Part shown: piece by piece, positions 1,591 through 18,145 of the stretch
Position numbering within the stretch: position 1 is the stretch's first letter
Layout of the letters: each line of letters starts with the position of its first letter
NCBI GenBank assembly: GCA_902792815.1
Contig: CADBAY010000012.1
Span: 41,807 to 105,806, forward strand
Reading direction: 5' to 3'
Length of the DNA stretch: 64,000 nucleotides
Source: an uncultured Bacteroidia bacterium
Lineage (GTDB): Bacteria; Bacteroidota; Bacteroidia; Bacteroidales; UBA932
Made by a program: the position numbers and the translations under genes
The notes under the pieces: model-generated
Database searches by the model: none
Told to the model about the DNA's origin: nothing
What the model saw: only the letters and a program-made list of their open reading frames with translations

Positions 1591-2882
1591 GGAAGTGTAT
1601 TTTTACAATTTGCGCCAAGAACTATATTGCCCTTGCGCAAGTACTCGAGAGTTCCGTCCGGCAGTATGAAGAAGGCGTTGATTTCTTCATAGTGGTTGCG
1701 GATGAGTTTGACGCCGCCTCTTCGATGGAACATCCTGCAAATGTGCTGGTGGCAAAGGATATCCTGCCCATTCATGACGCCCTGTGGCGGAATATGTCTT
1801 TCAAGTACAACCTCACCGAGTTCTGTACATCCATCAAGCCATTCTGTGTCGAGCACTTCTTTGGCGAAGGCTACGATGCTGTCTGCTATCTCGACCCGGA
1901 CACATATCTTTTCAGCGATTTTTCATACGTATGGGATAGCCTTGGGGAGTATCTGGTCGTTACGGCACCTCACGTTACCATCCCGCAGTACCCCTACAAG
2001 GGCGATCTGCCGGACAGGAGTTTCCTCTTCAACGGAATCAGCAACCTTGGGTTCGGTGCGTTCCGCAAATCCGAAAAGGTGCTGAACGTGGTGAAATGGT
2101 GGCAGGACAGGCTCAAGAACCAGTGCTTCGGCGAGATGCTGTGGGCTCAGTGCACCGACCAAAAATGGACGGATTTCTTCCCTGCGTTCTTCGACAGCGG
2201 CGAATTGCTGTTTTCAAACAATCTCGGACTCAATCTTGCGCCCTGGAACTATTTCGAAAGGAAAGTTTCCTACGATCAGGGAGTATGGTATGTGGAAAGC
2301 AGGGACGGCTTGTCAGAAAGGAAAGACAAACTGGTTTTCTGCCATTTTGCCGGATACGACTACAAAGCTTTCGTTACAAGCGGAAAGGTTGACAATGCAT
2401 CCAGGGTGCGGATCAGCAATCTGGCTGCTTATGCCGATATAGAGCCTCTTGTGGAACTCTATGCCCAAACCATACACTCGCAGCGTGAAGTATTTGAAAA
2501 GTATTTGTCGCTTGACTATTCATACGGGCATTTTGATAACGGAGCGCCAATAGACAAGATGCACCGCCGCCTGTATAACGGTATGGCGACGTATTATGGG
2601 TATTCAGAGGACCCATTCTCTACAGGAGAGGGAAGCTTGTACAGCAATTTCAAAAAGAAGGGGATGATTTCGGCCGGCAAGCCTGTTGACTCTGTCAATG
2701 AGACCAACATGGGTTCTTTCCCAAAGAAGTTGCGTATCCTGTATTCTCTGCTGCGAGTGCTTTACCGTATCGTGGGGTACAGGAATTATGTGCTCTTGCT
2801 GCAATTCTTCAGAAGGATTTCTCTCTTCGACATGAACACCTTCCTTCTGGGCAAGGACTACGAGAACTATAAACTAAGATAA
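1587..2882 (+). CDS. GT-A-type glycosyltransferase, family not assigned
   Basis: A 431-residue protein that starts like a nucleotide-diphospho-sugar transferase: C-I-F-T-I-C-A-K-N-Y-I-A-L-A-Q-V-L. It carries a likely metal-binding DxD-type motif in CYLDPDTYLF (about residues 93-102). A second conserved-looking block is FNGISNLGFGAFRKS, followed by WWQDRL and the WTDFFP region, as in several uncharacterised Bacteroidota glycosyltransferases that resemble GT8. No signal peptide is visible. The C-terminal 100 residues are less recognisable and contain an aromatic, basic helix. The start at 1587 overlaps the acyltransferase stop by 4 bp. It is probably a cytoplasmic or membrane-peripheral enzyme of repeat-unit assembly. 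The sugar specificity is not predictable. Confidence 0.7.
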   Translation: MRKCIFTICAKNYIALAQVLESSVRQYEEGVDFFIVVADEFDAASSMEHPANVLVAKDILPIHDALWRNMSFKYNLTEFCTSIKPFCVEHFFGEGYDAVCYLDPDTYLFSDFSYVWDSLGEYLVVTAPHVTIPQYPYKGDLPDRSFLFNGISNLGFGAFRKSEKVLNVVKWWQDRLKNQCFGEMLWAQCTDQKWTDFFPAFFDSGELLFSNNLGLNLAPWNYFERKVSYDQGVWYVESRDGLSERKDKLVFCHFAGYDYKAFVTSGKVDNASRVRISNLAAYADIEPLVELYAQTIHSQREVFEKYLSLDYSYGHFDNGAPIDKMHRRLYNGMATYYGYSEDPFSTGEGSLYSNFKKKGMISAGKPVDSVNETNMGSFPKKLRILYSLLRVLYRIVGYRNYVLLLQFFRRISLFDMNTFLLGKDYENYKLR

Positions 2883-2883
2883 A

Positions 2884-4017
2884 ATGGTCGTTGGAATCAG
2901 CGGATATGTAGGCAACCGCCTTACGGGAATAGGCAGGGTTCTGGTCAATGTGGTCAGGGAACTCTCTGCCCAGAACCCGGGCGATGTGTATTACATCTTC
3001 AAGAACGACGACTACGACGGGTTCAGCCAGCTTGAAGGGGCCCAAAACGTGCGTCTTGTCAATACCGGAGTGAGCAAGGAGTCCGGGATGAAGAACCTGC
3101 TGTGGCATCAGTACGGCTTCCAGAGACTGCTAAAGAAGTATTCTTGCGATATTGCATACATCCCTAATTTCTCGCTGCTTTTGTGGAAAGTCGTTCCGAC
3201 AGCCGTTACGATTCATGACCTCATCGAGTTCAACGTTCCCGGCAAGTTCGGGAAGATGCGGATGTTCTACCGCAAGTATATATGCGATCCTCTTATGGCG
3301 CGCCGCAGCGATGTAATACTTACGGTCTCGGAGTCATCCAAGAGGGATATTATCAAATACCTCAAGGCACCGGAGTCAAAAATAACAGTTACTCCCAATG
3401 CTTCAGACGACTCGGTCTTCAGGAAGTATCCCGCAGATGAATGCGCCAGGGCCGCGGCCCGTTACGGTCTTGGGGCTAAAGATTTTTTCCTTTTTGTGGG
3501 AACAATAGATTATCCGGGGAAGAACATCAAGGCAGTCGTTGAGACGTATGTGAGCTTTAGGAAAGACGGCCTGTTTGCAGATAAGAAACTGGCTATCATA
3601 GGCAAGAAGGGATATAACGCCGAGGTTATTATGTCTTTGGTGGAGTCGAGCGGGTTCAAGGATGATATAGTTTTTCTCGGTTATGTGCCTGACGAAGATC
3701 TGGGCAGGCTGTGCGGCGCCGCCCTCCTTATGCTCTATCTGTCGCATTATGAGGGCTTCGGCCTTCCTGTGCTTGAGGCAATGTCGTGCGGCACTCCGGC
3801 AGTTTGCTCCGATACTTCAAGTTTTCCCGAGATTGCAGGGGATTTGGACATGTGCGTGCCGCCAGAAGATATTGAGGCCATCAAGCGTAAGGTCCTGGAG
3901 TTCGCCGACCCGGCCCGGTACGAAGAACTCAGCAATGCCATGTATGAGCGCTCAAGGCAGTTCTCGTGGTCCGCTTCGGCCGGTATCTACCATAGTGTAT
4001 TCGAGTCTTTGATATGA
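2884..4017 (+). CDS. Glycosyltransferase family 4
   Basis: A 377-residue GT-B fold enzyme. The N-terminal acceptor domain starts with VVGISGYVGNRLTGIGRVLVN, a glycine-rich loop (G-x-G-R-V) typical of GT4. The C-terminal donor domain has FLFVGTIDYPGKN and the E-x7-E block HYEGFGLPVLEAMSCGTPAV, with the two conserved glutamates, followed by SDTSSFPEIAGD. The gene starts one base after the previous stop and overlaps the next gene by 4 bp, so it is translationally linked. Enzymes of this subgroup often transfer mannose, rhamnose or glucose from a nucleotide donor. The donor cannot be read directly here. Confidence 0.88.
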   Translation: MVVGISGYVGNRLTGIGRVLVNVVRELSAQNPGDVYYIFKNDDYDGFSQLEGAQNVRLVNTGVSKESGMKNLLWHQYGFQRLLKKYSCDIAYIPNFSLLLWKVVPTAVTIHDLIEFNVPGKFGKMRMFYRKYICDPLMARRSDVILTVSESSKRDIIKYLKAPESKITVTPNASDDSVFRKYPADECARAAARYGLGAKDFFLFVGTIDYPGKNIKAVVETYVSFRKDGLFADKKLAIIGKKGYNAEVIMSLVESSGFKDDIVFLGYVPDEDLGRLCGAALLMLYLSHYEGFGLPVLEAMSCGTPAVCSDTSSFPEIAGDLDMCVPPEDIEAIKRKVLEFADPARYEELSNAMYERSRQFSWSASAGIYHSVFESLI

Positions 4018-5318
4018 AATTATTCCGTCATATCCTCTGTCTTGGCATATTGCTGATGCCGTTTGTCCTTCGCGCCGCGCCGCTGGTTTCTGTGCGGCTG
4101 GAGGATTATGGCTCCGTCAGGACTCCAGAGGATGCCGGAGAGACTTTTATCAGAGCCCTGAACGACATATCCGGCAAGCGTCTCCAGCTCCCGCCGGCAC
4201 TGATACGGATTACACGCGATTTTACTCTCAAGGACTGCAAGAAGTTTGAAATCGTGGGCAGCCCTAAAGGAGGCCGTATCGAATGCAAGATTTTCATGCT
4301 CCTGGATTGTCAGGATTTTGTAGTGGACGGACTTTCTTTCTACGGAACCCGGGAACAGTTCGCCAGCTTCTATGTGATAGGGAATTGCCGCGATTTCGAG
4401 ATCCGCAATTGCCGCTGCGATTCCGAACAGGATTTCGCCGGCAACAATACGTTTTACGGCATTCATGTATGCGGAAGGGCGGACGACCCGTATTCATCGT
4501 ACGCCAACTCCCCGAAGCACTTTAAGATTCATGACAATGTGGTTCGCAATACCCGCTACGACGGCATCCTGGTCCACGGCCACTGCTCCGATTTCGTTAT
4601 TGAGAACAATACCGTCATTGCGCCTCAGTGCATCGGTATCGAAGTAGAAGGCCGGTACGGCGAATTGAAGACAACCACCGTGCACCGTTGCCGCCGCGGG
4701 GTGATACGGAACAATCACATTTCCGACTGCGGCGACTGGGGTATCCTTCTGATGTGGTCCGACAATATAGTCGTTACCGACAACGAGAGCCGTAATGCCG
4801 CCGGCACCTTCCTGTCTATAGGCTGCAAGGACTTGCGGGTCACCCGTAACATCCTGGAAGGCACTCGGAAAGGATTTGAAATCTCGCAGGAATTCTTCGC
4901 CGTCGAAAAGGGCATCAACGAGCACATAGTTGTGCGGAACAATACAATAACCTGCATCGCACGTGCGGACGGCAGGGGCGCGGTCGACATCAGGCACAGC
5001 CGCGACGTGGTATTCCGTGGCAATAAGGTCAAAGTGGCCGGCCGCGTCTCAAGCGGAGCTATCAGCGTTTCCTCTTCCGTCGGGGTCAAGATAACCGACA
5101 ATGAGTTCAGCGGTGACGGCGAACTGCCGCGCTACGCTGTTTTATGCAGCAATGTGCTGGATCCCGAGACAGGCCAGGACGTGCCCGGCCTTGACTTGAC
5201 CCAGGTGAGGATCGTCCGGAACAAGCTTCCTCTCTCATTCCGTGATATGCGTGTAAAGGTGCCCAAAGGCTCAGATGCCGTGAACATACGCGGCAATTCT
5301 TTCCGTGATGACAAATAG
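4014..5318 (+). CDS. Secreted right-handed parallel beta-helix protein
   Basis: 434 residues with an N-terminal signal peptide (MKLFRHILCLGILLMPFVLRAAP). After it come many tandem beta-helix rungs of the type F-x-I-x-x-N-x-V / V-I-R-N-N-H-I-S-D, for example DFEIRNCRC, HFKIHDNVVRNTRYDGI, DFVIENNTVIAP, GVIRNNHISDCGDWGI and NIVVTDNES. This is the pattern of pectate-lyase or NosD/PbH1-like proteins. Such proteins in polysaccharide loci can be lyases, epimerases or glycan-binding scaffolds. No clear catalytic constellation is visible. It is exported, so it would act on the finished polymer in the periplasm or at the surface rather than on repeat-unit synthesis. Possible roles are trimming, length control or anchoring. 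Confidence 0.75.
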   Translation: MKLFRHILCLGILLMPFVLRAAPLVSVRLEDYGSVRTPEDAGETFIRALNDISGKRLQLPPALIRITRDFTLKDCKKFEIVGSPKGGRIECKIFMLLDCQDFVVDGLSFYGTREQFASFYVIGNCRDFEIRNCRCDSEQDFAGNNTFYGIHVCGRADDPYSSYANSPKHFKIHDNVVRNTRYDGILVHGHCSDFVIENNTVIAPQCIGIEVEGRYGELKTTTVHRCRRGVIRNNHISDCGDWGILLMWSDNIVVTDNESRNAAGTFLSIGCKDLRVTRNILEGTRKGFEISQEFFAVEKGINEHIVVRNNTITCIARADGRGAVDIRHSRDVVFRGNKVKVAGRVSSGAISVSSSVGVKITDNEFSGDGELPRYAVLCSNVLDPETGQDVPGLDLTQVRIVRNKLPLSFRDMRVKVPKGSDAVNIRGNSFRDDK

Positions 5319-5322
5319 TGAT

Positions 5323-6051
5323 ATGGCAAAGACAGTAGCAGTTATTCTGGCCGGAGGCTCCGGCGTACGCTTCGGCGCTGACAAGCCGAAGCAGTTTCTG
5401 GAAATAGATGGAAGGGCTTTGATCGAATATACTATCGACGCTTTTGAAAAGCACGCGCTAATAGACGAGATTGCGATTGTAACGCGCGCCGATTATATAG
5501 ACTGGTGCCGCGACATTGTGGAGCGTAACGCTTATAAAAAAGTGAATAGGATACTTCCCGGCGGGAAAGAGCGTTATCATTCGAGCCTGGCTGCCATAGA
5601 AGTCTATGCCAATGAGGACAAACTGATTTTCCACGATGCCGTGCGGCCGTTTGTCAGCGAGCGAATAATCAGCGATTGCGTTGAAGCTCTCAAACATTTT
5701 GATGCGGTGGATGTGGCAGTAAAGACCGTGGATACCATCATACAAGTGGGGGAGGACAATTGCATTACATCCATTCCTCCTCGTCCGCTGCTCAGGAACG
5801 GGCAGACGCCGCAGTGCTTCAAGCGGGCGGTCATCCGCCGAGCTTATGACCTGGCCTTGCAGGATCCCGGTTTCAGGACCACCGACGACTGCGGAGTAGT
5901 GGTGCGCTATCTTCCCGATGTACCCGTATATGTGGTGGAAGGGGAGTACTCGAATATGAAACTGACCAATTATGAAGATCTGGCAATTCTTCAAAAGTAT
6001 TGGGAACTGCTTGGTTACTCTTCCGGCGGCTCTGGCCGTTCTGAGCTGTAA
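5323..6051 (+). CDS. IspD/TarI-family cytidylyltransferase
   Basis: This 242-residue enzyme couples CTP to a polyol phosphate. The nucleotide-binding signature is VAVILAGGSGVRFGADKPKQF at the N-terminus. Downstream are GGKERYHSSL, FHDAVRPFVS and PQCFKRAVIRRAY, all in the order seen in IspD and in TarI/Bcs1 ribitol-5-phosphate cytidylyltransferases. The ATG at 5323 places the Rossmann-like strand directly at the N-terminus. In-frame GTG 5305 and ATG 5308 are alternatives, and both overlap the previous gene. Because it sits in a polysaccharide operon two genes from a LicD-like transferase, I favour synthesis of a CDP-activated alditol or glycerol for surface decoration over a role in isoprenoid synthesis. 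Motifs alone do not separate the two substrates. Confidence 0.8.
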   Translation: MAKTVAVILAGGSGVRFGADKPKQFLEIDGRALIEYTIDAFEKHALIDEIAIVTRADYIDWCRDIVERNAYKKVNRILPGGKERYHSSLAAIEVYANEDKLIFHDAVRPFVSERIISDCVEALKHFDAVDVAVKTVDTIIQVGEDNCITSIPPRPLLRNGQTPQCFKRAVIRRAYDLALQDPGFRTTDDCGVVVRYLPDVPVYVVEGEYSNMKLTNYEDLAILQKYWELLGYSSGGSGRSEL

Positions 6052-6880
6052 CTCTTTGCAGGAAGAAACCAATTTCAGCCCGACATTTACCGGTATCCGG
6101 GAGTTTTTCTCCCTGGATTCGGGAGATATTATAATCAGTGGACACAGGGGCGGTTTTATGGACGGCTATCCCGAGAACTGCCTTGAGTCGTTTCAGGCGA
6201 TAAGCAGCCGTATGCCTGTGTATTTCGAGATCGACCCGAGGTTCACCAAGGACAGTGTTGTTGTGCTCCTTCACGATGAAGACATATCGCGGAGCACCGA
6301 CGGCTCGGGTAAGATATCCGACAAGACATATGCAGATTTGAGCCTCCTTCGCCTCAAAGACCGCAAGGGCGCGTTGACCCGCTCGCATATTCCCACCTTC
6401 GACAGCGTGCTGGAGTGGAGCAAAGACAAGGTGATCCTCAATCTTGACCGCAAAAACGTGCCGGTCGCGACGCTGGTGAAAAAGCTTGAAGAGCACGGAG
6501 CCGACAACTGTATCTTCACGGTACATTACCCCTCCCAGGCCTTGGAAGTGCTTGAGAGTAAGCCTGACGCCCTGTTTTCGGCGTTTATCGGCTCTGAAGA
6601 GATATTGGGTGAGTATGAGGACCTTGGACTGCTTGACCATATCGTGGTGGCGTATGTCCTTGCCGCCTATCCTCAGGAAGATATGTATTCGCTATACAAC
6701 AAGATCCGCAGCCATGGAATACGCTGTATGGTCTCCATCGTAAACGAGCAGGATCTGTTTAGCGGCAGTAAACGCAAGGAGTATTACGGTTACCTCGTTG
6801 AAGCTCATCCTGACGTGATCGAGACCGACAGGCCGCTGGAGTTTATCGGGCTGAAAGGTGTCCGGGCATACCGGCGATAA
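5972..6880 (+). CDS. Glycerophosphodiester phosphodiesterase-family lipoprotein
   Basis: 302 residues. The first 26 form a lipoprotein signal peptide ending in VLSC. The GDPD domain follows: SGHRGGFMDGYPENCLESF (H58, R59, E68), then VYFEIDPRFTKD (E87, D89) and the second histidine in VLLHDEDISRSTDG (H101), which together make the usual metal and acid-base site. These enzymes hydrolyse glycerophosphodiesters to glycerol-3-phosphate and an alcohol. The gene overlaps the 3' end of the cytidylyltransferase by 80 bp, and the whole signal peptide is encoded inside that overlap. No later start would keep an export signal. Next to a cytidylyltransferase and a LicD homologue, it may remove or recycle phosphodiester substituents in the periplasm. 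Confidence 0.85.
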   Translation: MKIWQFFKSIGNCLVTLPAALAVLSCNSLQEETNFSPTFTGIREFFSLDSGDIIISGHRGGFMDGYPENCLESFQAISSRMPVYFEIDPRFTKDSVVVLLHDEDISRSTDGSGKISDKTYADLSLLRLKDRKGALTRSHIPTFDSVLEWSKDKVILNLDRKNVPVATLVKKLEEHGADNCIFTVHYPSQALEVLESKPDALFSAFIGSEEILGEYEDLGLLDHIVVAYVLAAYPQEDMYSLYNKIRSHGIRCMVSIVNEQDLFSGSKRKEYYGYLVEAHPDVIETDRPLEFIGLKGVRAYRR

Positions 6881-6887
6881 GCAGTAT

Positions 6888-7697
6888 ATGACAGCAATTA
6901 GCGACGCCGAATTAAAGACAGTTTCTTTCGATATTCTCCTGTTTGTGGATGAATTCTGCAAGCAGAAGGGGATTTGTTATTTCTTGTGCGGCGGCACTAT
7001 GCTGGGCGCTTTCCGCCACAAGGGTTTCATTCCCTGGGATGATGACATAGATATAATGATGCCCCGCGCCGACTACGACCGCTTTCTGTGTGAGTTCCCG
7101 GCCCATGACTGCTATGCTTTGGATGCGCCGGGGCTGACCCCGGGCTATCCTTTTGCTTATGCCAAAGTTGTAGACAAGCGCACGGTCAAGTATCAGGGAG
7201 CCGTGCGGGAGAGGTTCAAGAATGGATATGTTGACGTGGATGTGTTCCCGATCGACAATGTGCCCGACAGCGAGGAGGAACAGAAACGGTTCTTTGACAG
7301 TATAAAGCGCATCGAAGACCGAAGGACCTTCTTCCTTTTCCCGAAACGCGAAAAAGGGCTGAAGCCGCTTGCCGCCAGGATGGTCAGGGCGGTGCTTGAA
7401 TGGACCGGACTGATGAACATCGACAAAGCGGTGGCTGCATTCTGCCGTCTTGCCCGCAAGTATGAGTCTTCCGGCTCCGGGCACTGGGCGATCACCAGCA
7501 TACATCACTACGGAATAAAGGAAGTCAATACGGCCGCTGATTATTTCCCCGTACTGGAGGCAGAATTCGAAGGCCGCTCTTTCCCGGTGCCCTCGAATTA
7601 CGATACATACCTGACACGGCTCTATGGCGACTATATGAAGATGCCGCCGGCGGACAGGCAGAAGACACACCATCTTTTTGACGCTTACTGGAGATAG
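6888..7697 (+). CDS. LicD-family phosphotransferase
   Basis: 269 residues with the LicD nucleotidyltransferase-fold core: a helix with ILLFVDEFCKQKGICYFLCGG, then LGAFRHKGFIPWDDDID, in which the aspartate triad binds metal, then IMMPRADYDRF. LicD-type enzymes transfer phosphocholine or another phospho-alcohol from a CDP donor to a glycan. The relatives FKTN/FKRP and TarI-linked enzymes transfer ribitol phosphate. The start at ATG 6888 comes 7 bp after the previous stop, and a GTG at 6858 would lie inside that gene. No TM segment is evident. With the CDP-alditol-type cytidylyltransferase two genes upstream, the pair suggests a phosphodiester-linked substituent on the polysaccharide. Its identity is not determined. 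Confidence 0.88.
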   Translation: MTAISDAELKTVSFDILLFVDEFCKQKGICYFLCGGTMLGAFRHKGFIPWDDDIDIMMPRADYDRFLCEFPAHDCYALDAPGLTPGYPFAYAKVVDKRTVKYQGAVRERFKNGYVDVDVFPIDNVPDSEEEQKRFFDSIKRIEDRRTFFLFPKREKGLKPLAARMVRAVLEWTGLMNIDKAVAAFCRLARKYESSGSGHWAITSIHHYGIKEVNTAADYFPVLEAEFEGRSFPVPSNYDTYLTRLYGDYMKMPPADRQKTHHLFDAYWR

Positions 7698-9239
7698 ATG
7701 TCCACCGCAACCCGCATAATGAAGAATTCCGGCTTCCTGTACATCAGGATGGGCATAAACGTGTTCATCTCGCTGTACACCACGAGGATTGTGCTTGATT
7801 CCCTGGGAGCTTCCGATTTCGGAATCTTCAATATAGTGGGCGGAGCGATAGCGATGATGGGCTTCCTGAGCTCGACCCTGGTCAATGCAACACAGCGTTT
7901 TACTTCTTATGCTCTAGGGGCGGGAGACCTTGAAGAGAGCAAGAAGATGTTCAATATCAGCATTGTGCTGAATCTGCTCATAGGCATCGTTACTGTGCTT
8001 CTGTTGCTCGGAGTGATGTATCCGCTGTTCAACGGTATCCTTAACATAGCTCCAGAGCGCACCGCAGCGGCCAAGGTTGTGTACTATAGCTTGATAGTCA
8101 GCACTTTCCTGACTATAGTAAATGTGCCGTACGATGCTGTGATGAACGCCCACGAGAATATGCTGTACTATTCTGTGCTGGGTGTGTTCGAGGCCTTGCT
8201 GAAGCTCGGGATAGCGTTCTGCTGCGTCTATACTTCCAAGGACAAGCTCATAGTTTACGGCGTTCTGATGGCAATGATTCCTTTGCTCACCCTGTCCATC
8301 ATGAAAGTCTATTGCCACCGCAAATATCCCGAGTGCGTCTTTGCAATACGCCGCTACTGGGATCCGGTGCGCGTCAAGGGCATCCTGTCGTTTTCGGGGT
8401 GGAACTTCCTTACGGCCATCTCGAGCCTTTTCTCTGCACAGGGTATAGGAATAGTGCTTAACCATTTCTTCGGTACCGTGCTCAACGCCGCTCAGGGTAT
8501 AGCCCAGCAGCTGAACGGCTATATGTCGAGTTTTTCGGCCAATATGATGAAGGCGCTGAACCCGGTGATTGTCAAGAAGGCCGGGTCCAACGACCTGGAA
8601 TCAATGAACCGCTTCACTGTATCGGGCTGTAAGTTCTCGGCACTGTTGATAATGTTTTTTTCCATTCCCTGCATGATCGAGATGCCATATGTACTCGGCA
8701 TCTGGCTGAAGGAAATACCCGAATGGACCGTTCTGTTCTGCATTCTCCAGCTGGTACAGACCATAATAGTGCAGATGGCCGGCAGCGCTGCGACTGCCGT
8801 TTACGCGCAGGGACAGATTAAGTGGTATGCTATATGGAAGAGCCTTATGAATGCGGCGCCTGTTATACTGACATATATTGCATTCAAGACCGGGGGCGGC
8901 CCCGTATGGCTCTACCTCCCAATGATAGTCGTGTGGGGCATCGGCGGGGATATAGTTATCGTGGCCTATGCCCACAAGTTGTGCGGGCTCTCTCTCCGGG
9001 ACTATTTCCGCGGCTGCGTGCTGCCTCTCGCCGGTATAGCCGCAAGCATGCTGCTGTTCGGGTTCCTGCCTTCTCTTCTGATGGAGAAGAGTTTCGTGAG
9101 GCTGCTGCTGTGCGCTCTTCTCACCAGTGCGGCCATGTTAGTGTCTCTATGGACCATCGGCATGGATGCCAGGGAGAAAGAAGCCTTGATGGAACCCGTT
9201 AATAAATTGATACACAGAAAAAAAACTGATAATGAGTAA
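7698..9239 (+). CDS. Polysaccharide flippase (Wzx/MATE-like, MVF superfamily)
   Basis: A 513-residue integral membrane protein with roughly 12-14 hydrophobic segments. It opens with a Wzx-like helix pair ([44 protein letters not shown]), with the conserved Arg and Asp/Asn-rich loop of oligosaccharide flippases. The later segments, such as [19 protein letters not shown] and [18 protein letters not shown], fit the family. It moves undecaprenyl-diphosphate-linked repeat units from the cytoplasmic to the periplasmic face. The start codon is immediately after the LicD stop, and the 3' end overlaps gmd by 8 bp (ATGAGTAA). No Wzy polymerase is recognised in the window, so it may be encoded upstream. 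Confidence 0.87.
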
Positions 9240-10338
9240 AAAAGCATTGATCACCGGCGTGACCGGTCAGGACGGCAGCTATCTCTCTGAGTTCCTGCTG
9301 GAAAAAGGATATGAAGTACACGGTATAATCCGCCGCAGTTCGGTGGATTTCCGTGAGAGGATTGCCCATCTGGAGGGCAAGCCCCGTTTCCATCTGCATT
9401 ACGCTGACATGGGTGACTCTATGTCAATCGTAAAGGTGGTGGCCGCTGTGCGTCCGGACGAGATTTACAATCTGGCCGCCCAGAGCCATGTGCAAGTGAG
9501 CTTCGATTCGCCGGAGTTCACGGCCGACGTAGATGCCGTGGGCGTCCTCCGTATATTGGAGGCGGTCCGTGCCTGCGGCCTGGAATCGACCTGCCGTATC
9601 TATCAGGCATCGACGTCGGAACTCTACGGAAAGGTGGAGGAAGTGCCGCAGAACGAGAATACTCCGTTCCATCCTTACAGTCCCTACGCCGTGGCAAAAC
9701 TCTACGGCTACTGGATTGTGAAGGAGTACAGGGAGGCATACAATATGTTTTGCTGCAGCGGAATACTCTTCAACCACGAGAGCGAGCGCCGCGGCGAGAC
9801 ATTCGTCACGCGTAAGATTACCCTGGCGGCATCCAGGATCAAGCAGGGGCATCAAGACAAACTCTATCTGGGCAATCTCAGCTCGCTGCGCGACTGGGGC
9901 TACGCAAAGGACTATGTAGAGTGTATGTGGTTGATTCTTCAGCAGAAAGAACCGGAAGACTTTGTTATAGCCACGGGAGTCCAGCACAGCGTGAGGGATT
10001 TCTGCTACCTCGCTTTCAAGGAGGCCGGTATGGAACTCCGCTTCGAGGGTGAAGGTGCTGACGAGAAGGGTATATGCGTAGCGGGCCCTGAAGAACTGGT
10101 CGGAAAGACCCTGGTTGAGGTCAGTCCCGACTTCTACCGTCCCACCGATGTCGTCAACCTGTGGGGCGACCCTACGAAGGCCAAGGCCAAACTGGGCTGG
10201 AATCCATCCAGGACATCTTTCCAGCAGCTTGTCAAGCTTATGGTCGACCACGACATGGCCAAGGTGGCCGCGGAAGGCGCCGCCGCCAAGGTACGCACCA
10301 ACCTGGCCGAGTATCTCGAAAAAGGAATTGTAAAATGA
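9232..10338 (+). CDS. gmd: GDP-mannose 4,6-dehydratase (or GDP-heptose 4,6-dehydratase)
   Basis: A 368-residue short-chain dehydrogenase of the extended type. It has the NAD(P) loop [11 protein letters not shown] (G-x-x-G-x-x-G), the catalytic YxxxK in [10 protein letters not shown] with the serine/threonine in [10 protein letters not shown], and the Gmd-specific block [20 protein letters not shown]. The reaction gives GDP-4-keto-6-deoxy-mannose, precursor of fucose, rhamnose and perosamine. The region after RRSS is the short version ([20 protein letters not shown]) seen in one Gmd subgroup. No GDP-fucose synthase partner lies nearby, whereas a full GDP-heptose module does. Action on GDP-heptose, as in Campylobacter and Yersinia 6-deoxyheptose pathways, is therefore a possible alternative. 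Confidence 0.9.
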
Positions 10339-11420: not shown

Positions 11421-12487
11421 AGATAGTAGTTACCGGAACCCGTGGAATACCCGATGTCATGGGGGGCGTAGAGACTCATTGCGAGGAGCTCTGTCCAAGG
11501 CTTGCCGCACTTGGCGCCGATGTGATAGTGGTGCGCAGGAAGAGCTATGTCTCTGACGGCCTTACCCAGTGGAAAGGTGTTAAGCTCGTAGACTTGCCTT
11601 CTCCCAAGCGTAAGGCGTTCGAGGCCATAGTCCATACTTTCCGGGCCATAAACTACGCTGCCCGTGCCAAAGCCGACATAGTGCATATCAACGCCATCGG
11701 ACCCGCCCTTCTTGCCCCTTATGCCAAACTGCGCGGACTCAAAGTAGTGTTCACTCACCACGGCCCCGACTACGACCGCGAGAAGTGGGGCCGTCTTGCA
11801 AAGGCGATGCTCTCTCTCGGCGAGAGGCTGGGCGTCAAGTATGCCGACGACGTTATAGTAATCTCTGACGTTATCCGCAATATCGTTAAGGACAAATACG
11901 GCAGGACGCAGAGGGTTCATCTTATCTACAACGGGGTCCCTTCTCCGGAGATCTGTGACTATCCGGAATATTTTTCTTCTCTTGGCATAGAGGCGGGTAA
12001 ATACATCCTTGGGATGTGCCGCTTTGTCCCTGAGAAGCGTTTGCATGACCTAGTCGAAGCTTGCCGGGGACTTGAAGGATACAAGTTGGTGCTTGCCGGA
12101 GACGCCGATTTTGAAGACGATTATTCCCGCAGGCTCAAGGCTGAAGCTAAAGAGTCAGGCGCAGTGCTGACAGGCTTTATCCGGGGACGCAAGCTTCATT
12201 CTCTGCTCAGCAATGCCGCCTGCTACGTTCTGCCTTCATCTCACGAAGGCCTTCCGATAGCCCTGCTGGAGGCGATGAGCTACAAGTGCAAGGTGCTTGT
12301 GAGCGATATTCCCGCCAATCTCGAAGTGGGACTCGGAGAGGGCAACTACTTCCATTGCGGCGATGTGGCCGGCCTCCGGGAGAAGCTGAATGCCATTCTG
12401 CGTTCGCCTGAAAAGGCTGAATATGATATGACCAAGTATAACTGGGACCGGATTGCCCGGCAAGTATTAGAAGTATATGAACACTAA
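11417..12487 (+). CDS. Glycosyltransferase family 4, DUF1972-like N-terminus
   Basis: A 356-residue GT-B enzyme. The N-terminus [20 protein letters not shown] matches the G-T-R-G-I-P-x-x-x-G-G-x-E pattern of the DUF1972/Glyco_trans_4_4 group often found beside WcaJ-type initiating enzymes. HINAIGPALLAPYAKLRGLKVVFTHHGPDYDREKW is likewise typical. The donor domain has GMCRFVPEKRLHDLVEA and the E-x7-E block SSHEGLPIALLEAMSYKCKVLVSDI. The family includes rhamnosyl- and mannosyltransferases that add the second or third sugar to the lipid-linked intermediate. It overlaps its neighbours by 4 and 11 bp. Position next to the initiating enzyme suggests an early step, but the donor is unknown. Confidence 0.88.
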   Translation: MKIVVTGTRGIPDVMGGVETHCEELCPRLAALGADVIVVRRKSYVSDGLTQWKGVKLVDLPSPKRKAFEAIVHTFRAINYAARAKADIVHINAIGPALLAPYAKLRGLKVVFTHHGPDYDREKWGRLAKAMLSLGERLGVKYADDVIVISDVIRNIVKDKYGRTQRVHLIYNGVPSPEICDYPEYFSSLGIEAGKYILGMCRFVPEKRLHDLVEACRGLEGYKLVLAGDADFEDDYSRRLKAEAKESGAVLTGFIRGRKLHSLLSNAACYVLPSSHEGLPIALLEAMSYKCKVLVSDIPANLEVGLGEGNYFHCGDVAGLREKLNAILRSPEKAEYDMTKYNWDRIARQVLEVYEH

Positions 12488-13847
12488 GACATTCTATACC
12501 AAGGAATTCTTCTTCCTGAGCGTGCCCGTGATGCTGGTGGACCTGGCTATCCATATCGGAATATTCGAGTGGATGTTGAGCTGGTTCTCTTTTACGGCAA
12601 CCGAAGATTACGTCTTGACAAGGCCCCGTTCACTGTATTTCCTCATCGTCGGATTCATTATCGCAATGGTGCTTGTACCGGTGCGGCTGCACGACAGGAG
12701 TTACAACTGGAAGAAGCAGATCATGAGCGTTGTCTATCAGTGCGTGATTACCTTGGGAGTGCTTGCCGCCTCGGTGAACATACTGTTCTACAGCTTTGCG
12801 GGCCATTTCTACCTGTATCAGGGCATCTTTGCCGTGGTAGCCATCAGCATATGGCATCTGGTGTTCCGCGCCATTATCCTTGCCGCCCGCAAGAGGGGAC
12901 GCAATAAGGTCCATGTGGTAATAGTGGGGGAGAATGAGAACGCACACCGGCTAGCCAATGTGCTTGAGAATTCCTCGGAGTTCGGCGATTATAAACTGGT
13001 CGCGACATTTAACGAAGACCTTCCAGCCATCTTCGATTACATCCGGAACAATAAAGTCCATCAGCTATACTGCAGCCTCAACCCGGCATTGAAGAGCGCC
13101 ACGGTCAATGAAATAATCCGGCATTGCGAGAACCTGTTCATCGATTTCTACTATGTGCCTAATATGGACGGCTATCTGCACCGTTCCATGACCTTCAGCG
13201 AACTGGGCCCTTTAACCGTGGTAAAGCTCCGCGACGAGCCTCTGTCCTATCCGCTTAACGCGGCCGTCAAGCGCTTTTTCGATATAGTGGCCAGTTTGCT
13301 TTTCCTATTGCTCGTTTACCCCTTCGTGTGGTGTTTCGTGGCAATAGGGACGAGCCTTTCATCGCCAGGCCCTATACTCTTCAAACAGAAGCGTACCGGC
13401 TACAAAGGCCGTCCGTTCACTATGTACAAGTTCCGTTCTATGAAAGTGAATGCCGACGCCGACAAGCTTCAGGCTACGGAAGACGATCCGCGCAAGACCA
13501 AGTTCGGGGACTTCCTGCGCCGGACTTCAATAGACGAACTGCCCCAGTTTATCAATGTCCTCAAGGGCGATATGTCCATTATCGGCCCGCGTCCCCATAT
13601 GGAACTGCATACTGAGATTTATACAAAACTGGTGGACGAGTACCTGGTGCGGCATATGGTAAAACCCGGCCTTACCGGCTGGGCACAGGTTAACGGCTGC
13701 CGCGGAGAAACGAAAACTACCGAAGATATGGCGGAGCGGGTGCGCTATGACATTTGGTATATAGAGCACTGGTCTTTCGGCCTTGACGTGAAGATAGTAT
13801 TAAAGACCATTGCACAGATTCTGGGGGGCGACAAACAGGCCTATTAG
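12477..13847 (+). CDS. Undecaprenyl-phosphate sugar-1-phosphate transferase (WcaJ-type)
   Basis: 456 residues. The N-terminal half has four hydrophobic helices (residues 10-110) followed by a CoA-binding-like Rossmann domain (KVHVVIVGENENAHRLANVL). The C-terminal bacterial sugar transferase domain has a reentrant membrane helix (AAVKRFFDIVASLLFLLLVYP), then SSPGPILFKQKRTGYKGRPFTMYKFRSMKV, the catalytic D-E context in RRTSIDELPQFINVLKGDMS, and IIGPRPHMELH. This is the polyisoprenyl-phosphate hexose-1-phosphate transferase family that starts repeat-unit synthesis on undecaprenyl phosphate, usually with glucose or galactose. It overlaps the upstream GT4 by 11 bp. The specific first sugar is not readable. 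Confidence 0.93.
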   Translation: MNTKTFYTKEFFFLSVPVMLVDLAIHIGIFEWMLSWFSFTATEDYVLTRPRSLYFLIVGFIIAMVLVPVRLHDRSYNWKKQIMSVVYQCVITLGVLAASVNILFYSFAGHFYLYQGIFAVVAISIWHLVFRAIILAARKRGRNKVHVVIVGENENAHRLANVLENSSEFGDYKLVATFNEDLPAIFDYIRNNKVHQLYCSLNPALKSATVNEIIRHCENLFIDFYYVPNMDGYLHRSMTFSELGPLTVVKLRDEPLSYPLNAAVKRFFDIVASLLFLLLVYPFVWCFVAIGTSLSSPGPILFKQKRTGYKGRPFTMYKFRSMKVNADADKLQATEDDPRKTKFGDFLRRTSIDELPQFINVLKGDMSIIGPRPHMELHTEIYTKLVDEYLVRHMVKPGLTGWAQVNGCRGETKTTEDMAERVRYDIWYIEHWSFGLDVKIVLKTIAQILGGDKQAY

Positions 13848-13848
13848 A

Positions 13849-14931
13849 ATGAATGCTTTTTTTGAACTGATACAAATTGCCATAGGTAAGCGTGAGTCGC
13901 TCTCCCGCGTGCCCCAAAGCAGGGAAGAGTGGGACGAACTGCTCAAGATAACCGGGCAGCATAACCTGCTGGCTTTCACCTTCCCTGTGATAGACCGCCT
14001 GCACGACGAGGTTAATGTGCCTCTGGGCGTCTATTCCCGTTGGGCTATGATGGCCGAGAAAGTGGCTGCAAAAGGCAGCTTCCAGAAAGATGCCTGCGTG
14101 AAGTTGTACAAGGGCTTCCTGGACAATGGTTTCCGAAGCTGTATCCTCAAGGGACAGGCAGCAGGGGCATTGTATCCCGACCCCTCGCTGCGGCAGGGGG
14201 GCGATATTGATATATGGGTGGAAGGGGAGCGCCGGGATGTCGTGAGCTTCCTCCGCTCGCGTTTCGAGGTGCACAAGGTGGTGTATCACCATTGTGATGT
14301 CAAAATGATCAAAGGCGTGAGCGTGGAGGTGCATTTTACTCCCACCTGGATGAATGCTCCGTTCTCCAACCGCCGCTTGCAGCGCTGGATAGCCGGCCAG
14401 GCCCCGGCCCAATTCTCCAACTTCGACCCCTCTCTTGGATTCAATGTGCCCACGCTCGAATTCGATGCGGTTTATATGCTGCTCCATATTTACAGGCATG
14501 TGCTCGAAGAGGGCATAGGCTTGCGTCAGCTGCTTGATTATTATTATGTCCTGCAGCATCTTGACGAGGATGGCCGCAAGGCAGTGATGGGGCATATAAA
14601 CTTTCTGCACCTCGGGAGATTCGCAGCGGCCGTGATGTATGTAATGCAGGAAGTTTTCCTGCTGGAAGGTGAAAAGCTACTCTGCCCTCCCCACAAGGGA
14701 GAAGGTGCCTTCCTGCTTGAAGAGATTATGCTTTCGGGCAATTTCGGCAAGTTCGACTCCCGCAACGCCCACGAAAAGGGCGAAGGCCTGGTGGGACACA
14801 GCAAGAGAAAACTCACCCGCGGATTAAGGTATCTGCTGCACTACCCTTCGGAAGTGCTTGGAATGCCGGTGTTTATGTGCTGGCAGTATTTCTGGAGGCG
14901 TAAAAACGGTTTTTTATATAAAGGAAGATGA
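13849..14931 (+). CDS. NTP_transf_5-like nucleotidyltransferase-fold protein
   Basis: 360 residues from the ATG at 13849, two bases after the previous stop. An upstream in-frame ATG (13810) lies inside the wcaJ-type gene. The central part reads LDNGFRSCILKGQAAGALYPDPSLRQGGDIDIWVE, which resembles the PF14907 (uncharacterised nucleotidyltransferase) pattern K-G-x10-Y-P-x-x-x-x-R-x-x-x-D-I-D. The D-I-D pair would bind metal. A conserved-looking HFTPTWMNAPFSN and a C-terminal helical part follow. Such proteins are frequent in Bacteroidota polysaccharide loci, but no activity is established. By fold they may transfer a nucleotidyl or phospho group to a sugar. No signal peptide is visible. Confidence 0.75.
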   Translation: MNAFFELIQIAIGKRESLSRVPQSREEWDELLKITGQHNLLAFTFPVIDRLHDEVNVPLGVYSRWAMMAEKVAAKGSFQKDACVKLYKGFLDNGFRSCILKGQAAGALYPDPSLRQGGDIDIWVEGERRDVVSFLRSRFEVHKVVYHHCDVKMIKGVSVEVHFTPTWMNAPFSNRRLQRWIAGQAPAQFSNFDPSLGFNVPTLEFDAVYMLLHIYRHVLEEGIGLRQLLDYYYVLQHLDEDGRKAVMGHINFLHLGRFAAAVMYVMQEVFLLEGEKLLCPPHKGEGAFLLEEIMLSGNFGKFDSRNAHEKGEGLVGHSKRKLTRGLRYLLHYPSEVLGMPVFMCWQYFWRRKNGFLYKGR

Positions 14932-15974
14932 TAATCAGAAGCAAAGCTCCGCTGCGCCTTGGCTTGGCAGGCGGCGGAAGCGACGTATCGCCCTACAGCG
15001 ATATGTTCGGAGGCCTGGTTTTGAATGCTACAATTAATCTGTACGCATACTGCACCATTGAAGAAACATCAGGGAGCAGTATATGCATCGATTCTTATGA
15101 TGCTCACTGCAATCTTACTTATGACCTTGCCGAGTCTCTCCCCATTGACGGACAGGCAGATCTGGTCAAAGGGGTTTACAACAGAGTTGTACGCGATTTC
15201 GGCATAACTCCGCGCCCGTTCCGCATCACCACATGGAACGATGCGCCTGCCGGCTCCGGCCTCGGAACTTCCAGCACTATGGTGGTGTGCATTCTCAAAG
15301 CATTCGTGGAGTGGTTCTCGCTCCCGATGGGCGATTATGAAATAGCACGCCTTGCTTATGAGATAGAAAGGAAGGACCTTTGCCTGTCCGGAGGCAAGCA
15401 GGACCAGTATGCCGCGGCGTTCGGCGGCTTCAATTTCATAGAATTCCTGCCGGACGACCGGGTAATAGTCAATCCCCTCAAGGTCAAGAGATGGATCGCC
15501 GACGAGCTGGAATCCAGCCTTTTGCTGTTTTTCACGGGCAAGTCAAGAGACGGTGCGAGCATTATCGACCAGCAGCGCAAGAATACTTCTTCGGGCAATG
15601 CCCGGGCTATAGAGGCTATGCACAAAATAAAGCAAAGCGCCGTAGATATGAAGGCTGCTCTGCTCAAGGGCGATATGAATGAGTTCTGCTCTATTTTGGG
15701 CAGCAGCTGGGAGAATAAGAAGAAAATGGCGGAGGGGATAACCAATGAGACCATCCAGCACGCTTTCGACGTGGCTATGGCTGCAGGGGCCAGGACCGGT
15801 AAAGTTAGCGGCGCGGGCGGCGGCGGTTTCATTATGTTCTTTGTCGATCCTCCTTGCAAAAAACGGGTCGAAGACGCCCTGAGCGCCCTTGACGGCTATG
15901 TGCTGCCGTTCCTGTTTACTGACGGAGGGGCTCACGGATGGAAGATTTACGATACTGATACTATAAACAAATGA
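14928..15974 (+). CDS. hddA: D-glycero-alpha-D-manno-heptose 7-phosphate kinase
   Basis: A 348-residue GHMP-family kinase. The start IIRSKAPLRLGLAGGGSDVSPY is the hallmark of HddA-like kinases. The ATP-binding P-loop is NDAPAGSGLGTSSTM, and the C-terminal motif 3 is TGKVSGAGGGGFIMF. HddA phosphorylates D-glycero-D-manno-heptose 7-phosphate at C1 with alpha configuration, which commits the sugar to the GDP-heptose branch. A related subgroup (fucose or arabinose kinases) shares the fold, but adjacency to gmhA and the hddC-gmhB fusion makes HddA by far the best reading. Both ends overlap neighbours by 4 bp. Confidence 0.9.
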   Translation: MIIRSKAPLRLGLAGGGSDVSPYSDMFGGLVLNATINLYAYCTIEETSGSSICIDSYDAHCNLTYDLAESLPIDGQADLVKGVYNRVVRDFGITPRPFRITTWNDAPAGSGLGTSSTMVVCILKAFVEWFSLPMGDYEIARLAYEIERKDLCLSGGKQDQYAAAFGGFNFIEFLPDDRVIVNPLKVKRWIADELESSLLLFFTGKSRDGASIIDQQRKNTSSGNARAIEAMHKIKQSAVDMKAALLKGDMNEFCSILGSSWENKKKMAEGITNETIQHAFDVAMAAGARTGKVSGAGGGGFIMFFVDPPCKKRVEDALSALDGYVLPFLFTDGGAHGWKIYDTDTINK

Positions 15975-16606
15975 AAGCTGTACTTGACAATCTCATCGAA
16001 CGTTATCCTGCTCTGGCTTGCTGCCGGGAGCAGATAGAAAAGGCTGCTGATATACTGGTAGAATGTTACCGTAAGGACGGCAAACTTCTGACGGCCGGAA
16101 ACGGGGGCAGTGCTGCCGATGCTGAGCACATAGTGGGGGAGATGATGAAGACGTTCTGTTATCAGAAGACTTTGCCCGAGGGCTATGCCGAAGCGCTTTA
16201 TGCCACCGACCTCGAGATGGGTAACGTCCTTGCCAGCCACCTGCAGGGAGCTCTTCCTGCAATTGCCCTGGACGGCCATATCTCGCTGAGTACCGCATAC
16301 ATGAACGACTGCGAGCCTCTGCTTTGTTTTGCACAGCAAGTGGCAGGGTACGGCCGCGAAGGGGATGTTTTGCTGGGGATAAGCACATCCGGCAACAGCC
16401 GTAACGTGCTCTATGCCGCTGTTGCTGCAAAGGCCCGCGGCATGAAAGTCATAGGTCTTACAGGCAGCCGCGAGAACCGCCTGGAGAAATTCGCCGATGT
16501 GTGCATCAAAGTGCCTGAGACACAGACATACAAGGTTCAGGAATTGCACCTTCCCGTGTATCATTGCATTTGCTTGATGGTCGAAAAGTACTTCTTCGGG
16601 AAATAA
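15971..16606 (+). CDS. gmhA: Sedoheptulose 7-phosphate isomerase
   Basis: A 211-residue SIS-domain protein. The phosphate-binding loop is LLTAGNGGSAADAEHIVGEMMK. The second SIS loop GDVLLGISTSGNSRNVLYAA and the C-terminal VQELHLPVYHCICLMVE, with the likely catalytic His/Glu, follow the GmhA order. It converts sedoheptulose 7-phosphate to D-glycero-D-manno-heptose 7-phosphate, the first step of nucleotide-heptose synthesis. The product is the substrate of the kinase encoded directly upstream, with which this gene overlaps by 4 bp. The length is slightly above the usual 190-200 residues because of an internal segment around residues 60-80. Confidence in the pathway assignment is high. Confidence 0.9.
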   Translation: MKAVLDNLIERYPALACCREQIEKAADILVECYRKDGKLLTAGNGGSAADAEHIVGEMMKTFCYQKTLPEGYAEALYATDLEMGNVLASHLQGALPAIALDGHISLSTAYMNDCEPLLCFAQQVAGYGREGDVLLGISTSGNSRNVLYAAVAAKARGMKVIGLTGSRENRLEKFADVCIKVPETQTYKVQELHLPVYHCICLMVEKYFFGK

Positions 16607-16624
16607 CTCCGGAGTGTCTGCTAA

Positions 16625-17842
16625 ATGGAGGTTATAATACTTGCAGGAGGCTTGGGGACGCGCCTGAGGAGCGTGGTAAGCGATGTGCCCAAATGCATGG
16701 CGCCCGTTGACGGTAAACCGTTTTTGTGGTACCTGCTCGAGCACCTCAGGCTCTTTAACGTTACGCACGTTATCCTTAGCGTAGGGTATCTGCGTGAATC
16801 CGTGCAGGACTGGGTGGAGCGGCACAAAGGTGATTATCCTTTCCGCTTCAGTTTTGCCGTAGAGGAGGAGCCCCTTGGCACTGGAGGCGGTATTGCGCTG
16901 GCATCGTCTATGGTTCACGGCCGTGAGGCGGTGGTCCTGAACGGTGACACTTTTTTTGACGCTGACCTGGACGAACTGCTTGAACTGCGCCGCAGCAGCG
17001 GCCGGCCTGTCGCTTTAGCCCTTAAGAAAATGCGCTCTTTCGACCGCTATGGTACGGTGGAACTCTCTTCTGAAGGATTGGTGATAGGTTTCCGTGAAAA
17101 GCAGTACTGCGCCGAAGGATTTATTAACGGGGGCGTTTATGCGCTGGATCTTGATGCTGGCGTTTTTGATGGACTTGAGGGCAAGTTCTCTTTCGAGCGC
17201 GATGTCCTGGAACCCTGCTGTGCCAAGGGTTTGATATGCGGAACGGAGCAGAGCGGCTATTTTCTGGATATAGGAATTCCCGCCGATTATTCTCGGGCTG
17301 TGGAGAAGCCCCGCTTGTTGCATCATCCGTGTGACCTCCTGGAAATAGTGCAGATGGCAGAAGGCTTCGAAACTTTGCTGCTCGACCGCGACGGGGTGAT
17401 CAACCGCCTGCACCCGGGGGACTACATCAAAGAACCCGGTGAATTTGAGTGGCTCCCCGGCGTAAAAGAGGCACTGCGGGAGGCGGTAGGCAAGTTCCGG
17501 GGTATTTACATAGTCTCCAATCAGCGCGGGGTCGGGAGGGGGATTATGAGCCGCGCCGCGCTTGATTCTCTGCATTCCTGGATGCTTGGGGAGATCGCGG
17601 CCGCTGGCGGCCGCATCGACGGCCTCTATATCTGCACCGCAGTTTCCGAAGACGACCCTCGCCGCAAGCCGCAGACAGGAATGTTCGAAGACCTTATGCG
17701 CGACCATCCGGGGATTGACCCTGATACGACCCTTATGGTTGGCGACAGCCCCTCCGACCGCCTCTTTGCCCGTCGCTGCGGTATTGCATTTTATATGGTT
17801 AGAGATTGCTCTGCCATGGCACTTGCGGCAGCTATGGCTTGA
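16625..17842 (+). CDS. HddC-GmhB fusion: heptose-1-phosphate guanylyltransferase / heptose bisphosphatase
   Basis: A 405-residue protein with two enzymes in one chain. Residues 1-235 are a sugar nucleotidyltransferase: EVIILAGGLGTRLRSVVSDVPKCMAPV, LNGDTFFDAD, FINGGVYAL. This fits HddC, which makes GDP-D-glycero-alpha-D-manno-heptose. Residues 248-405 are a HAD phosphatase of the GmhB/HisB-N type: LLLDRDGVIN (D254, D256), IVSNQRGVGRG (S298), RRKPQTGMF (K348) and MVGDSPSDRL (D374). It would remove the 7-phosphate from the bisphosphate. The Cys/His zinc loop common in GmhB is missing: the stretch 337-349 has a single cysteine. It follows gmhA by 18 bp and closes the operon. Confidence 0.88.
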   Translation: MEVIILAGGLGTRLRSVVSDVPKCMAPVDGKPFLWYLLEHLRLFNVTHVILSVGYLRESVQDWVERHKGDYPFRFSFAVEEEPLGTGGGIALASSMVHGREAVVLNGDTFFDADLDELLELRRSSGRPVALALKKMRSFDRYGTVELSSEGLVIGFREKQYCAEGFINGGVYALDLDAGVFDGLEGKFSFERDVLEPCCAKGLICGTEQSGYFLDIGIPADYSRAVEKPRLLHHPCDLLEIVQMAEGFETLLLDRDGVINRLHPGDYIKEPGEFEWLPGVKEALREAVGKFRGIYIVSNQRGVGRGIMSRAALDSLHSWMLGEIAAAGGRIDGLYICTAVSEDDPRRKPQTGMFEDLMRDHPGIDPDTTLMVGDSPSDRLFARRCGIAFYMVRDCSAMALAAAMA

Positions 17843-17868: not shown

Positions 17869-17873
17869 TTCCG

Positions 17874-18143: not shown

Positions 18144-18145
18144 CT

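Follow-up and report, generated by a model that had tools for sequence, protein, structure and literature searches.

A TarI-type cytidylyltransferase, a lipoprotein-like GDPD and a LicD homologue as a candidate phospho-alditol module in a Bacteroidales polysaccharide operon

The window analysed here is a 64,000-nucleotide stretch of contig CADBAY010000012.1, from the genome of an uncultured bacterium of the Bacteroidales (2.37 Mb in 48 contigs, 97% complete). At 5323-7697, three contiguous open reading frames (ORFs) on the + strand encode an IspD-family cytidylyltransferase (IspD2), a protein of the glycerophosphodiester phosphodiesterase (GDPD) family and a LicD phosphotransferase. We interpret the trio as a writer pair with an extracytoplasmic phosphodiesterase, serving a phospho-alditol, with ribitol likeliest, on a Wzx/Wzy-type surface polysaccharide; taken whole, this reading stands at about even chances. 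That the pair writes a phospho-alditol in the broad sense is a claim we make with good confidence, and ribitol in particular as the donor alcohol is a balanced call.

The initial annotation of this DNA had placed contiguous IspD/TarI-like, GDPD lipoprotein and LicD genes in a polysaccharide operon, and the ORFs and their Pfam matches bear this out, each of the three lying above its cut-off. IspD2, which we class as a putative TarI-type CTP:alditol-phosphate cytidylyltransferase (5323..6051, + strand, 242 aa), matches PF01128 (IspD) with 151.6 bits (E 3.5e-44) against a gathering score of 27. The GDPD (5972..6880, + strand, 302 aa), which has a lipoprotein-like start, matches PF03009 with 68.2 bits (E 1.6e-18; gathering score 23.6) and contains the His/Arg, Glu-x-Asp and His residues of its family, and LicD (6888..7697, + strand, 269 aa) matches PF04991 with 156.9 bits (E 1.1e-45; gathering score 22.6), its IPWDDDIDI motif preserving the PWDDD signature intact. 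A collinear operon occurs in a related species, the yak omasum metagenome-assembled genome RGIG9677 (locus L102), where the same genes can be followed by eye over 20.7 kb. Identities to the counterparts there are 90% for IspD2, 86% for the GDPD and 91% for LicD, with dN/dS values (NG86) of 0.072, 0.068 and 0.079, indicating purifying selection; given this conservation and the low dN/dS, the trio consists of real working genes rather than relics.

We envision that IspD2 would form a CDP-alditol from CTP and an alditol phosphate; the latter is most likely D-ribitol-5-phosphate, which would yield CDP-ribitol, as suggested by the descent of the enzyme, by the glycine at position 160 and by its conserved catalytic residues. 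The phospho-alditol would then be attached to the repeat unit, which would afterwards be exported. Once the polysaccharide has left the cytoplasm and been polymerised, the GDPD lipoprotein could act on phosphodiesters in the periplasm or on the cell surface so as to trim or free the group, which is the weakest step of the scheme. Since the reductase domain that supplies ribitol-5-phosphate in related enzymes is gone, the alditol phosphate would have to come from elsewhere in the genome, where a single GatD-like polyol-phosphate dehydrogenase is a candidate source. A more specific proposal, which we regard as speculative and rather doubtful, is a write-and-erase module, for which bacteria of this genus would have stripped a CDP-alditol synthase of its built-in reductase and teamed the remaining cytidylyltransferase and LicD with an exported phosphodiesterase, by which the phospho-alditol would be removed or exposed once assembly is complete. 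If this were true, surface charge or antigen could be changed without new synthesis, and editing of the group by the GDPD would amount to a reversible surface modification in commensals.

Descent and active site of the cytidylyltransferase

Of 261 stretches confirmed in a search of GTDB genomes, the best 80 loci were analysed by six-frame scan, neighbours being counted within 3 kb on the same strand. Forty-six of these 80 carry fusions of IspD to a short-chain dehydrogenase/reductase (SDR) domain, and 34 carry no SDR. LicD neighbours 25 of the 46 fusions and a TagF-like gene six, with both present in one case, and at L142 the cytidylyltransferase and SDR halves are split as neighbouring genes. 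Bacteroides clarus (L108) is among the species with a fused enzyme. Elsewhere, at L135:7369-10672 and L152:7414-10660, LicD, an extended SDR (judged by eye) and two different IspD-family genes stand in a row.

IspD2 consists of an IspD domain only and lacks the C-terminal SDR domain of Bcs1-type enzymes; by tree placement, it is nonetheless a descendant of the TarI-SDR fusion clade. In a tree of 107 rows, six SDR-less members of the window's genus (IspD2 and five others) form one branch (99/94), which sits within a branch holding 12 fusions (92/94, not starred). Forcing the six together with 12 stand-alone rows was rejected (p-AU 6e-5) in a subset of 34 rows, selected after the first tree was known. 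Since the SDR-less branch is nested in the fusions and the alternative is rejected, a single loss of the reductase domain in this lineage is the most likely history. The comparison in a tree with IspD and TarI-type enzymes, which the initial annotation had proposed, thus puts IspD2 on the TarI side. Its best PDB matches are 2vsh (top), 4kt7, 4jis, 3f1c and 6xhp; 4jis and 6xhp carry the PDB name ribitol-5-phosphate cytidylyltransferase, 4kt7 an IspD name, and 2vsh is named IspD-like. We take 2vsh to be TarI of pneumococcus and 3f1c to be a TarI as well. Bcs1, a fusion of the same kind, reduces ribulose-5-phosphate and makes CDP-ribitol, as described in an excerpt of PMC10299916.

A single residue tracks the fusion clade closely. 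Glycine at position 160, within xGQTPQ, is found in all 46 SDR-fused rows, in four of four TarI-type PDB rows and in all six SDR-less genus rows; it occurs in none of the 75 other rows that lack a fused SDR, nor in any of the 4 housekeeping references. The underlying alignment holds 136 rows after removal of two duplicate genomes, with 4kt7 (Ile) assigned to no group, and its rows are related by descent, so that the counts are of non-independent events. Four additional loci fit the pattern: L120 (fused) and L142 (split) carry glycine, and L157 and L172, both without SDR, carry Val and Ile, respectively. Position 160 adjoins a residue that contacts 2-C-methyl-D-erythritol 4-phosphate (MEP) in E. 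coli IspD. Gly160 thus offers a cheap marker for separating TarI-like from IspD-like enzymes, which the cut-offs of hidden Markov models confuse. The core of the pocket also seems to be kept in the SDR-less enzymes. Of the positions with at least 85% uniformity among the fusions, nine differ in five or more of the six SDR-less rows, and none of these nine falls among the 37 compared positions that we take to make up the active-site region. Because of fusion descent and Gly160, the likeliest substrate of IspD2 is of the ribitol-5-phosphate type. The donor alcohol, which the initial annotation had left open, can thereby be narrowed toward this type as the most probable one.

The genome contains two ispD-family genes above the Pfam cut-off, plus one partial match below it. 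The second ispD (G000:C14:9651-10310) has mreB and topoisomerase genes, named by eye, in its surroundings, and its five best PDB matches are all named IspD. In the tree it clusters with the ordinary IspDs of the family (100/98) and is joined less firmly to the E. coli and two other IspD references (84/78 and 90/53). We conclude from this grouping that the MEP cytidylyltransferase of the genome is probably the C14 copy and not IspD2. A second, housekeeping ispD, which the initial annotation had suggested looking for, is therefore present, and IspD2 stands apart from it in the tree rather than grouping with a sole IspD of the genome, the outcome that had been named as contrary to the proposal. 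The C14 gene, its PDB matches, the tree and the constrained-tree test together led us to reject IspD2 as the housekeeping enzyme. In the genus, IspD2-like genes occur in 6 of 300 genomes, the window's included, with the line drawn at 1e-35; 18 other genomes of the genus gave no match below 3e-27 in the family search. A separate observation concerns 18 genomes from genera g152, g153 and g155 of the window's family (L036-L053), which carry an IspD2-like enzyme of 44-53% identity without Gly160. In 17 of the 18, this enzyme is the sole match at 1e-12, as if a TarI-like paralogue had taken over from the housekeeping IspD.

The phosphodiesterase, the transferase and the supply of alditol phosphate

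The GDPD begins with MKIWQFFKSIGNCLVTLPAALAVLSC, judged by eye to be a lipoprotein signal, and its best PDB match is 3mz2 (E 2.4e-51). In a by-eye comparison with GlpQ as described in part of PMC7086022, the residues H58/R59, E86, D88 and H101 are present, with D159 at the third metal-ligand site, an Asp where GlpQ has Glu152. The same part of PMC7086022 proposes that GlpQ requires a neighbouring hydroxyl; ribitol-5-phosphate likewise has one, and cleavage of a ribitol-phosphate linkage by the GDPD is therefore conceivable by analogy. The portions of the GlpQ literature drawn on contain no ribitol-cleaving GDPD.

The trio recurs in G447, a second species of the genus, in the order LicD (L234:9734-10549), IspD2 (9042-9737) and GDPD (8177-9085), in a different operon with different neighbours. 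Identities to the window are 34% for LicD, 59% for IspD2 and 41% for the GDPD. Because the trio is found again in another order and operon, the GDPD probably belongs to the module, as a trimming or releasing enzyme or as a supplier, and the proposal that the three genes belong together gains from this rearranged copy. Among the scanned loci, a GDPD accompanies an IspD-family gene only in the window, L102 and L234, all of the SDR-less form; the scan used the window's GDPD as query at 1e-8, and some loci had only about 1.5 kb of flank. The SDR-less loci of G563, G423 and G467 gave no GDPD match in the stretch scanned, G563 and G423 lying near contig ends. LicD lies a few genes from the SDR-less IspD2 in both G563 and G423. 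In G423, a gene that resembles those of metallophosphoesterases (L231:9677-11269), its product having a signal-like start as judged by eye, is divergent from IspD2 and runs off the contig, perhaps representing another exported phosphoesterase beside IspD2.

In G467, an operon containing phosphonate genes also encodes a TagF-like protein, whose score falls short of the Pfam cut-off. This glycan operon (L233:16922-19501 and L237:2922-7193) includes a phosphoenolpyruvate (PEP) mutase fused to nucleotidyltransferase domains, a thiamine pyrophosphate (TPP) enzyme and an iron alcohol dehydrogenase, and by gene content it is predicted to be a hydroxyethylphosphonate-type route alongside the SDR-less IspD2 and the TagF-like gene. 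Hydroxyethylphosphonate, a donor at which this locus hints, was rejected, since the G467 PEP mutase has nucleotidyltransferase domains of its own; no PEP mutase was seen in the window's operon, the rest of the genome not having been searched for one.

PF04991 matches no gene of the genome other than LicD. An AlphaFold model built from 25 sequences (mean pLDDT 81.1, pTM 0.79) finds chains of human FKRP, the ribitol-phosphate transferase, at PDB ranks 1-13, with 13-15% identity in these predicted fold matches. Reading the donor from a LicD tree was abandoned, the tree being weakly supported; LicD itself names no donor.

For the alditol phosphate, the sole PF08240 zinc alcohol dehydrogenase match in the genome, at C14:22310-23335, is a lone gene (by eye), whose best relatives are GatD, the galactitol-1-phosphate dehydrogenase. 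By kinship it would be a polyol-phosphate dehydrogenase that could in principle reduce ribulose-5-phosphate, making it a weak candidate supplier. Close orthologues (at least 83% identity, one of them a fragment) occur in 14 of 300 genus genomes, including four of the six that have IspD2, and any GatD-like match at 1e-35 in 69 of 300, including all six. A plain co-occurrence count with IspD2 gives 1.2e-4 for close orthologues and 4.3e-5 for any match, the genomes being related and kinship confounding both values. IspD2 is absent from ten of the 14 genomes with a close orthologue, and the GatD query retrieves a different dehydrogenase (31-32% identity) in G447 and G467; with kinship, these points led us to set the enzyme aside as a proven partner. 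In the SDR-less locus of G467, the iron alcohol dehydrogenase belongs to the phosphonate route, and an SDR-like gene lies further off in the same region. Three FGGY kinases are encoded outside the window's operon. By analogy with human cells, where FGGY phosphorylates ribitol according to an excerpt of PMC4873967, they could phosphorylate ribitol.

Competing explanations

Several observations weigh against a ribitol writer of the kind proposed. IspD2 scores 161 bits against the TarI model NF001183, under the cut-off of 166, and 181.9 bits against the IspD model TIGR00453, 0.6 over the cut-off of 181.3. NF001183, however, divides the types poorly, with the SDR fusion L023 failing (158.5) and the SDR-less L232 passing (172.5), and the NCBIfam cut-offs were dropped as a discriminator between TarI and IspD. 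Four divergent GQSPE enzymes without SDR (L090, L091, L093 and L217) have the glycine, so that Gly160 is an imperfect sign of a reductase partner. Near the active site, residue 134 is Pro in 37 of 46 fusions and Lys, Arg or Met in the six SDR-less rows, and residues 209 and 216 are also shifted relative to most fusions; these positions leave room for a change at the pocket edge or some shift of substrate. GlpQ-type GDPDs act strictly on sn-glycerol-3-phosphoryl groups (in the part of PMC7086022 drawn on), fitting glycerol over ribitol. The LicD model reaches TM-scores to FKRP of only about 0.44-0.52 by query length, and in the LicD tree the window's protein does not fall, with weak support, among the LicDs beside TarI-SDR fusions. 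No ribulose-5-phosphate reductase adjoins IspD2. The SDR domain of the fusions, used as query, finds six places in the genome at no more than 31% identity; of the four run against NCBIfam, two pass a general SDR model, and two stay under the cut-offs of the 3-ketodihydrosphingosine reductase and gluconate 5-dehydrogenase models. The GatD-like enzyme scores 219.6 against an NCBIfam cut-off of 550. As a side observation on the divergent group, cytidylyltransferases of GQSPE rather than GQTPQ type occur at L090/L214, L091/L215, L093 (genus g145) and L217 (G275, in the window's genus), and those of g145 lie directly beside LicD, with no reductase detected.

If the donor were CDP-glycerol, IspD2 having shifted to glycerol phosphate of central metabolism, LicD adding it and the GDPD removing sn-glycerol-3-phosphate, no reductase would be needed, which would explain why none adjoins IspD2 in the stretches covered of the six SDR-less loci (two of them, G563 and G423, near contig ends). 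The shifted residues 134, 209 and 216 and the restriction of the GDPD to the SDR-less form among the scanned loci would also fit, as would the release of glycerol-3-phosphate from polymers by GlpQ-type enzymes (an excerpt of PMC7086022). We nevertheless consider this explanation unlikely, as IspD2 agrees with the fusions at Gly160 and at the invariant positions of the active-site region, the GDPD occurs in three loci only (the window, L102 and L234), and by eye it has Asp in place of GlpQ Glu152. Alternatively, the GDPD might be a supplier that splits glycerophosphodiesters of dietary or membrane origin outside the cytoplasm and so provides the writer pair with an alcohol or the corresponding phosphate, much as the LicD pathway of Haemophilus influenzae receives its choline through GlpQ (in part of PMC10434233). 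This would account for the lack of an alcohol-making enzyme in the operon, but neither a transporter to take up an alcohol freed in this way nor, apart from an HddA-like sugar kinase, an alcohol kinase was seen there, and no tie to the operon was seen for the three FGGY kinases elsewhere in the genome; we judge the idea quite unlikely.

The GDPD could also be a general scavenging lipoprotein whose placement is accidental, with only the IspD2-LicD pair mattering. The trio is known from three loci and two operon types only, the GDPDs of the two types share 41% identity, and half of the six SDR-less loci (G563, G423 and G467) have no GDPD match in the scanned stretch. Set against this, IspD2 and the GDPD are adjacent with overlapping frames in both operon types despite their differing order and neighbours, and the gene is under purifying selection, which makes an accident very unlikely in our view. 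Hardly credible, finally, is IspD2 as a second MEP cytidylyltransferase or a maker of CDP-methylerythritol for LicD. The narrow pass over the TIGR00453 cut-off (0.6 bits) speaks for it, as do the relatives at 44-53% identity that look like the sole IspD of other genera; yet the genome has an ordinary IspD, and IspD2 is placed in the fusion clade and carries the glycine that is absent from all 75 other rows and four housekeeping references.

Known systems and operon context

The phospho-alditol writer pair has clear precedents. With the Bcs1 and TarI-TarJ CDP-ribitol synthases of Haemophilus influenzae type b and many Bacteroidales, which work with LicD or TagF-like transferases, IspD2 shares descent, the invariant active-site-region positions and Gly160, and it lies near LicD as do 25 of its 46 fused relatives. 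It differs in that the window has neither an SDR domain nor a neighbouring reductase and does have a gene for an exported GDPD. The human ISPD system with FKTN and FKRP follows the same enzyme logic (CDP-ribitol and LicD-type transferases), FKRP is the closest match of the LicD model, and the human reductase had likewise not been identified (an excerpt of PMC4873967); the window, in contrast, presents a bacterial polysaccharide operon with a phosphodiesterase partner, and fold-match identity is 13-15%. The Lic-1 phosphorylcholine pathway (LicA-LicB-LicC-LicD, with GlpQ) has in common a LicD transferase and a GDPD-family enzyme, whereas no choline kinase, permease or LicC was seen in the window's operon and the cytidylyltransferase is of another family. 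The GlpQ teichoicase acts on polymers and shares with the window's GDPD the family, the His/Arg, Glu-x-Asp and His residues and, judging by its start, export; the window's protein differs in being lipoprotein-like and closest to PDB 3mz2.

ISPD-LicD pairs and ISPD-LicD fusions are already published (in part of PMC4873967). For a TarI-LicD-GDPD trio, no description was found in the open-licence PMC literature, where 'glycerophosphodiester phosphodiesterase' and 'LicD' came up together only in a choline context (an excerpt of PMC10434233). Of the undescribed phospho-alditol decoration suggested by the initial annotation, the decoration itself stands as the likeliest product and the SDR-less form with an exported GDPD seems undescribed; the pairing of CDP-alditol with LicD is known as a kind, both from the 25 of 46 fusions and from the portion of PMC4873967 cited above. 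This route, known from teichoic acids, the Hib capsule and human dystroglycan, is suggested to be frequent in Bacteroidales, with the fused synthase in 46 of the best 80 loci, mostly Bacteroidota, and one lineage appears to have remodelled it, dropping the reductase and adding a phosphodiesterase.

Seventeen + strand genes (167-17842), the trio included, follow one another with intergenic gaps of -80 to +18 nt, the reading frames of IspD2 and the GDPD sharing an 80-nt overlap. Sixteen of the 17 were scanned with Pfam or NCBIfam and the last (11417-12487) was judged by eye; among them, in agreement with the initial annotation, neither a choline kinase nor a TarJ-like reductase nor TagD was seen. 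The pairing of a LicA choline kinase and LicC with LicD, as in Lic-1, is likewise not seen among these genes, and choline was rejected as the donor on this ground. A promoter and terminator scan of 1-18300 gave counts close to those of shuffled sequence. Upstream of the window lie a Wza/SLBB-type protein, a chain-length-type protein and a polymerase-like membrane protein (all named by eye), and unknown bases, X in translation, break a glycosyltransferase just before the window start (L005 near 19800).

The run opens with a GT11, a hexapeptide acyltransferase, a glycosyltransferase-like protein (1584-2882, + strand, by eye, with no family matched), a GT4 and a right-handed beta-helix protein (4014..5318, + strand; PF13229 and PF05048). 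The last, directly upstream of IspD2 and conserved in L102, has a signal-like start by eye, making it a second probably exported protein of the operon and a possible second glycan-modifying enzyme. After the trio follow a Wzx-type flippase (7698..9239, + strand; PF01554, 25.3 bits against a cut-off of 24.9), GDP-mannose 4,6-dehydratase (GMD; 9232..10338, + strand; TIGR01472 above cut-off), a radical SAM protein, a GT4 (11417-12487, + strand, by eye), a WcaJ-type initiating glycosylphosphotransferase (12477..13847, + strand; TIGR03023 above cut-off) and an NTP_transf_5 protein. HddA-like, GmhA-like and HddC-GmhB-like genes (14928..17842, + strand) close the run; with best NCBIfam matches each under its cut-off, they may provide a GDP-D-glycero-D-manno-heptose-type sugar for the same operon, and together with GMD possibly a GDP-(6-deoxy)-heptose. 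A GmhA relative also lies near the G447 trio (L234:3491-4129). In another genome, G315, a LicA-like kinase, LicC-like and IspD-like genes and LicD share one operon (L216:7154-10527, by eye), perhaps combining phosphocholine with a second donor.

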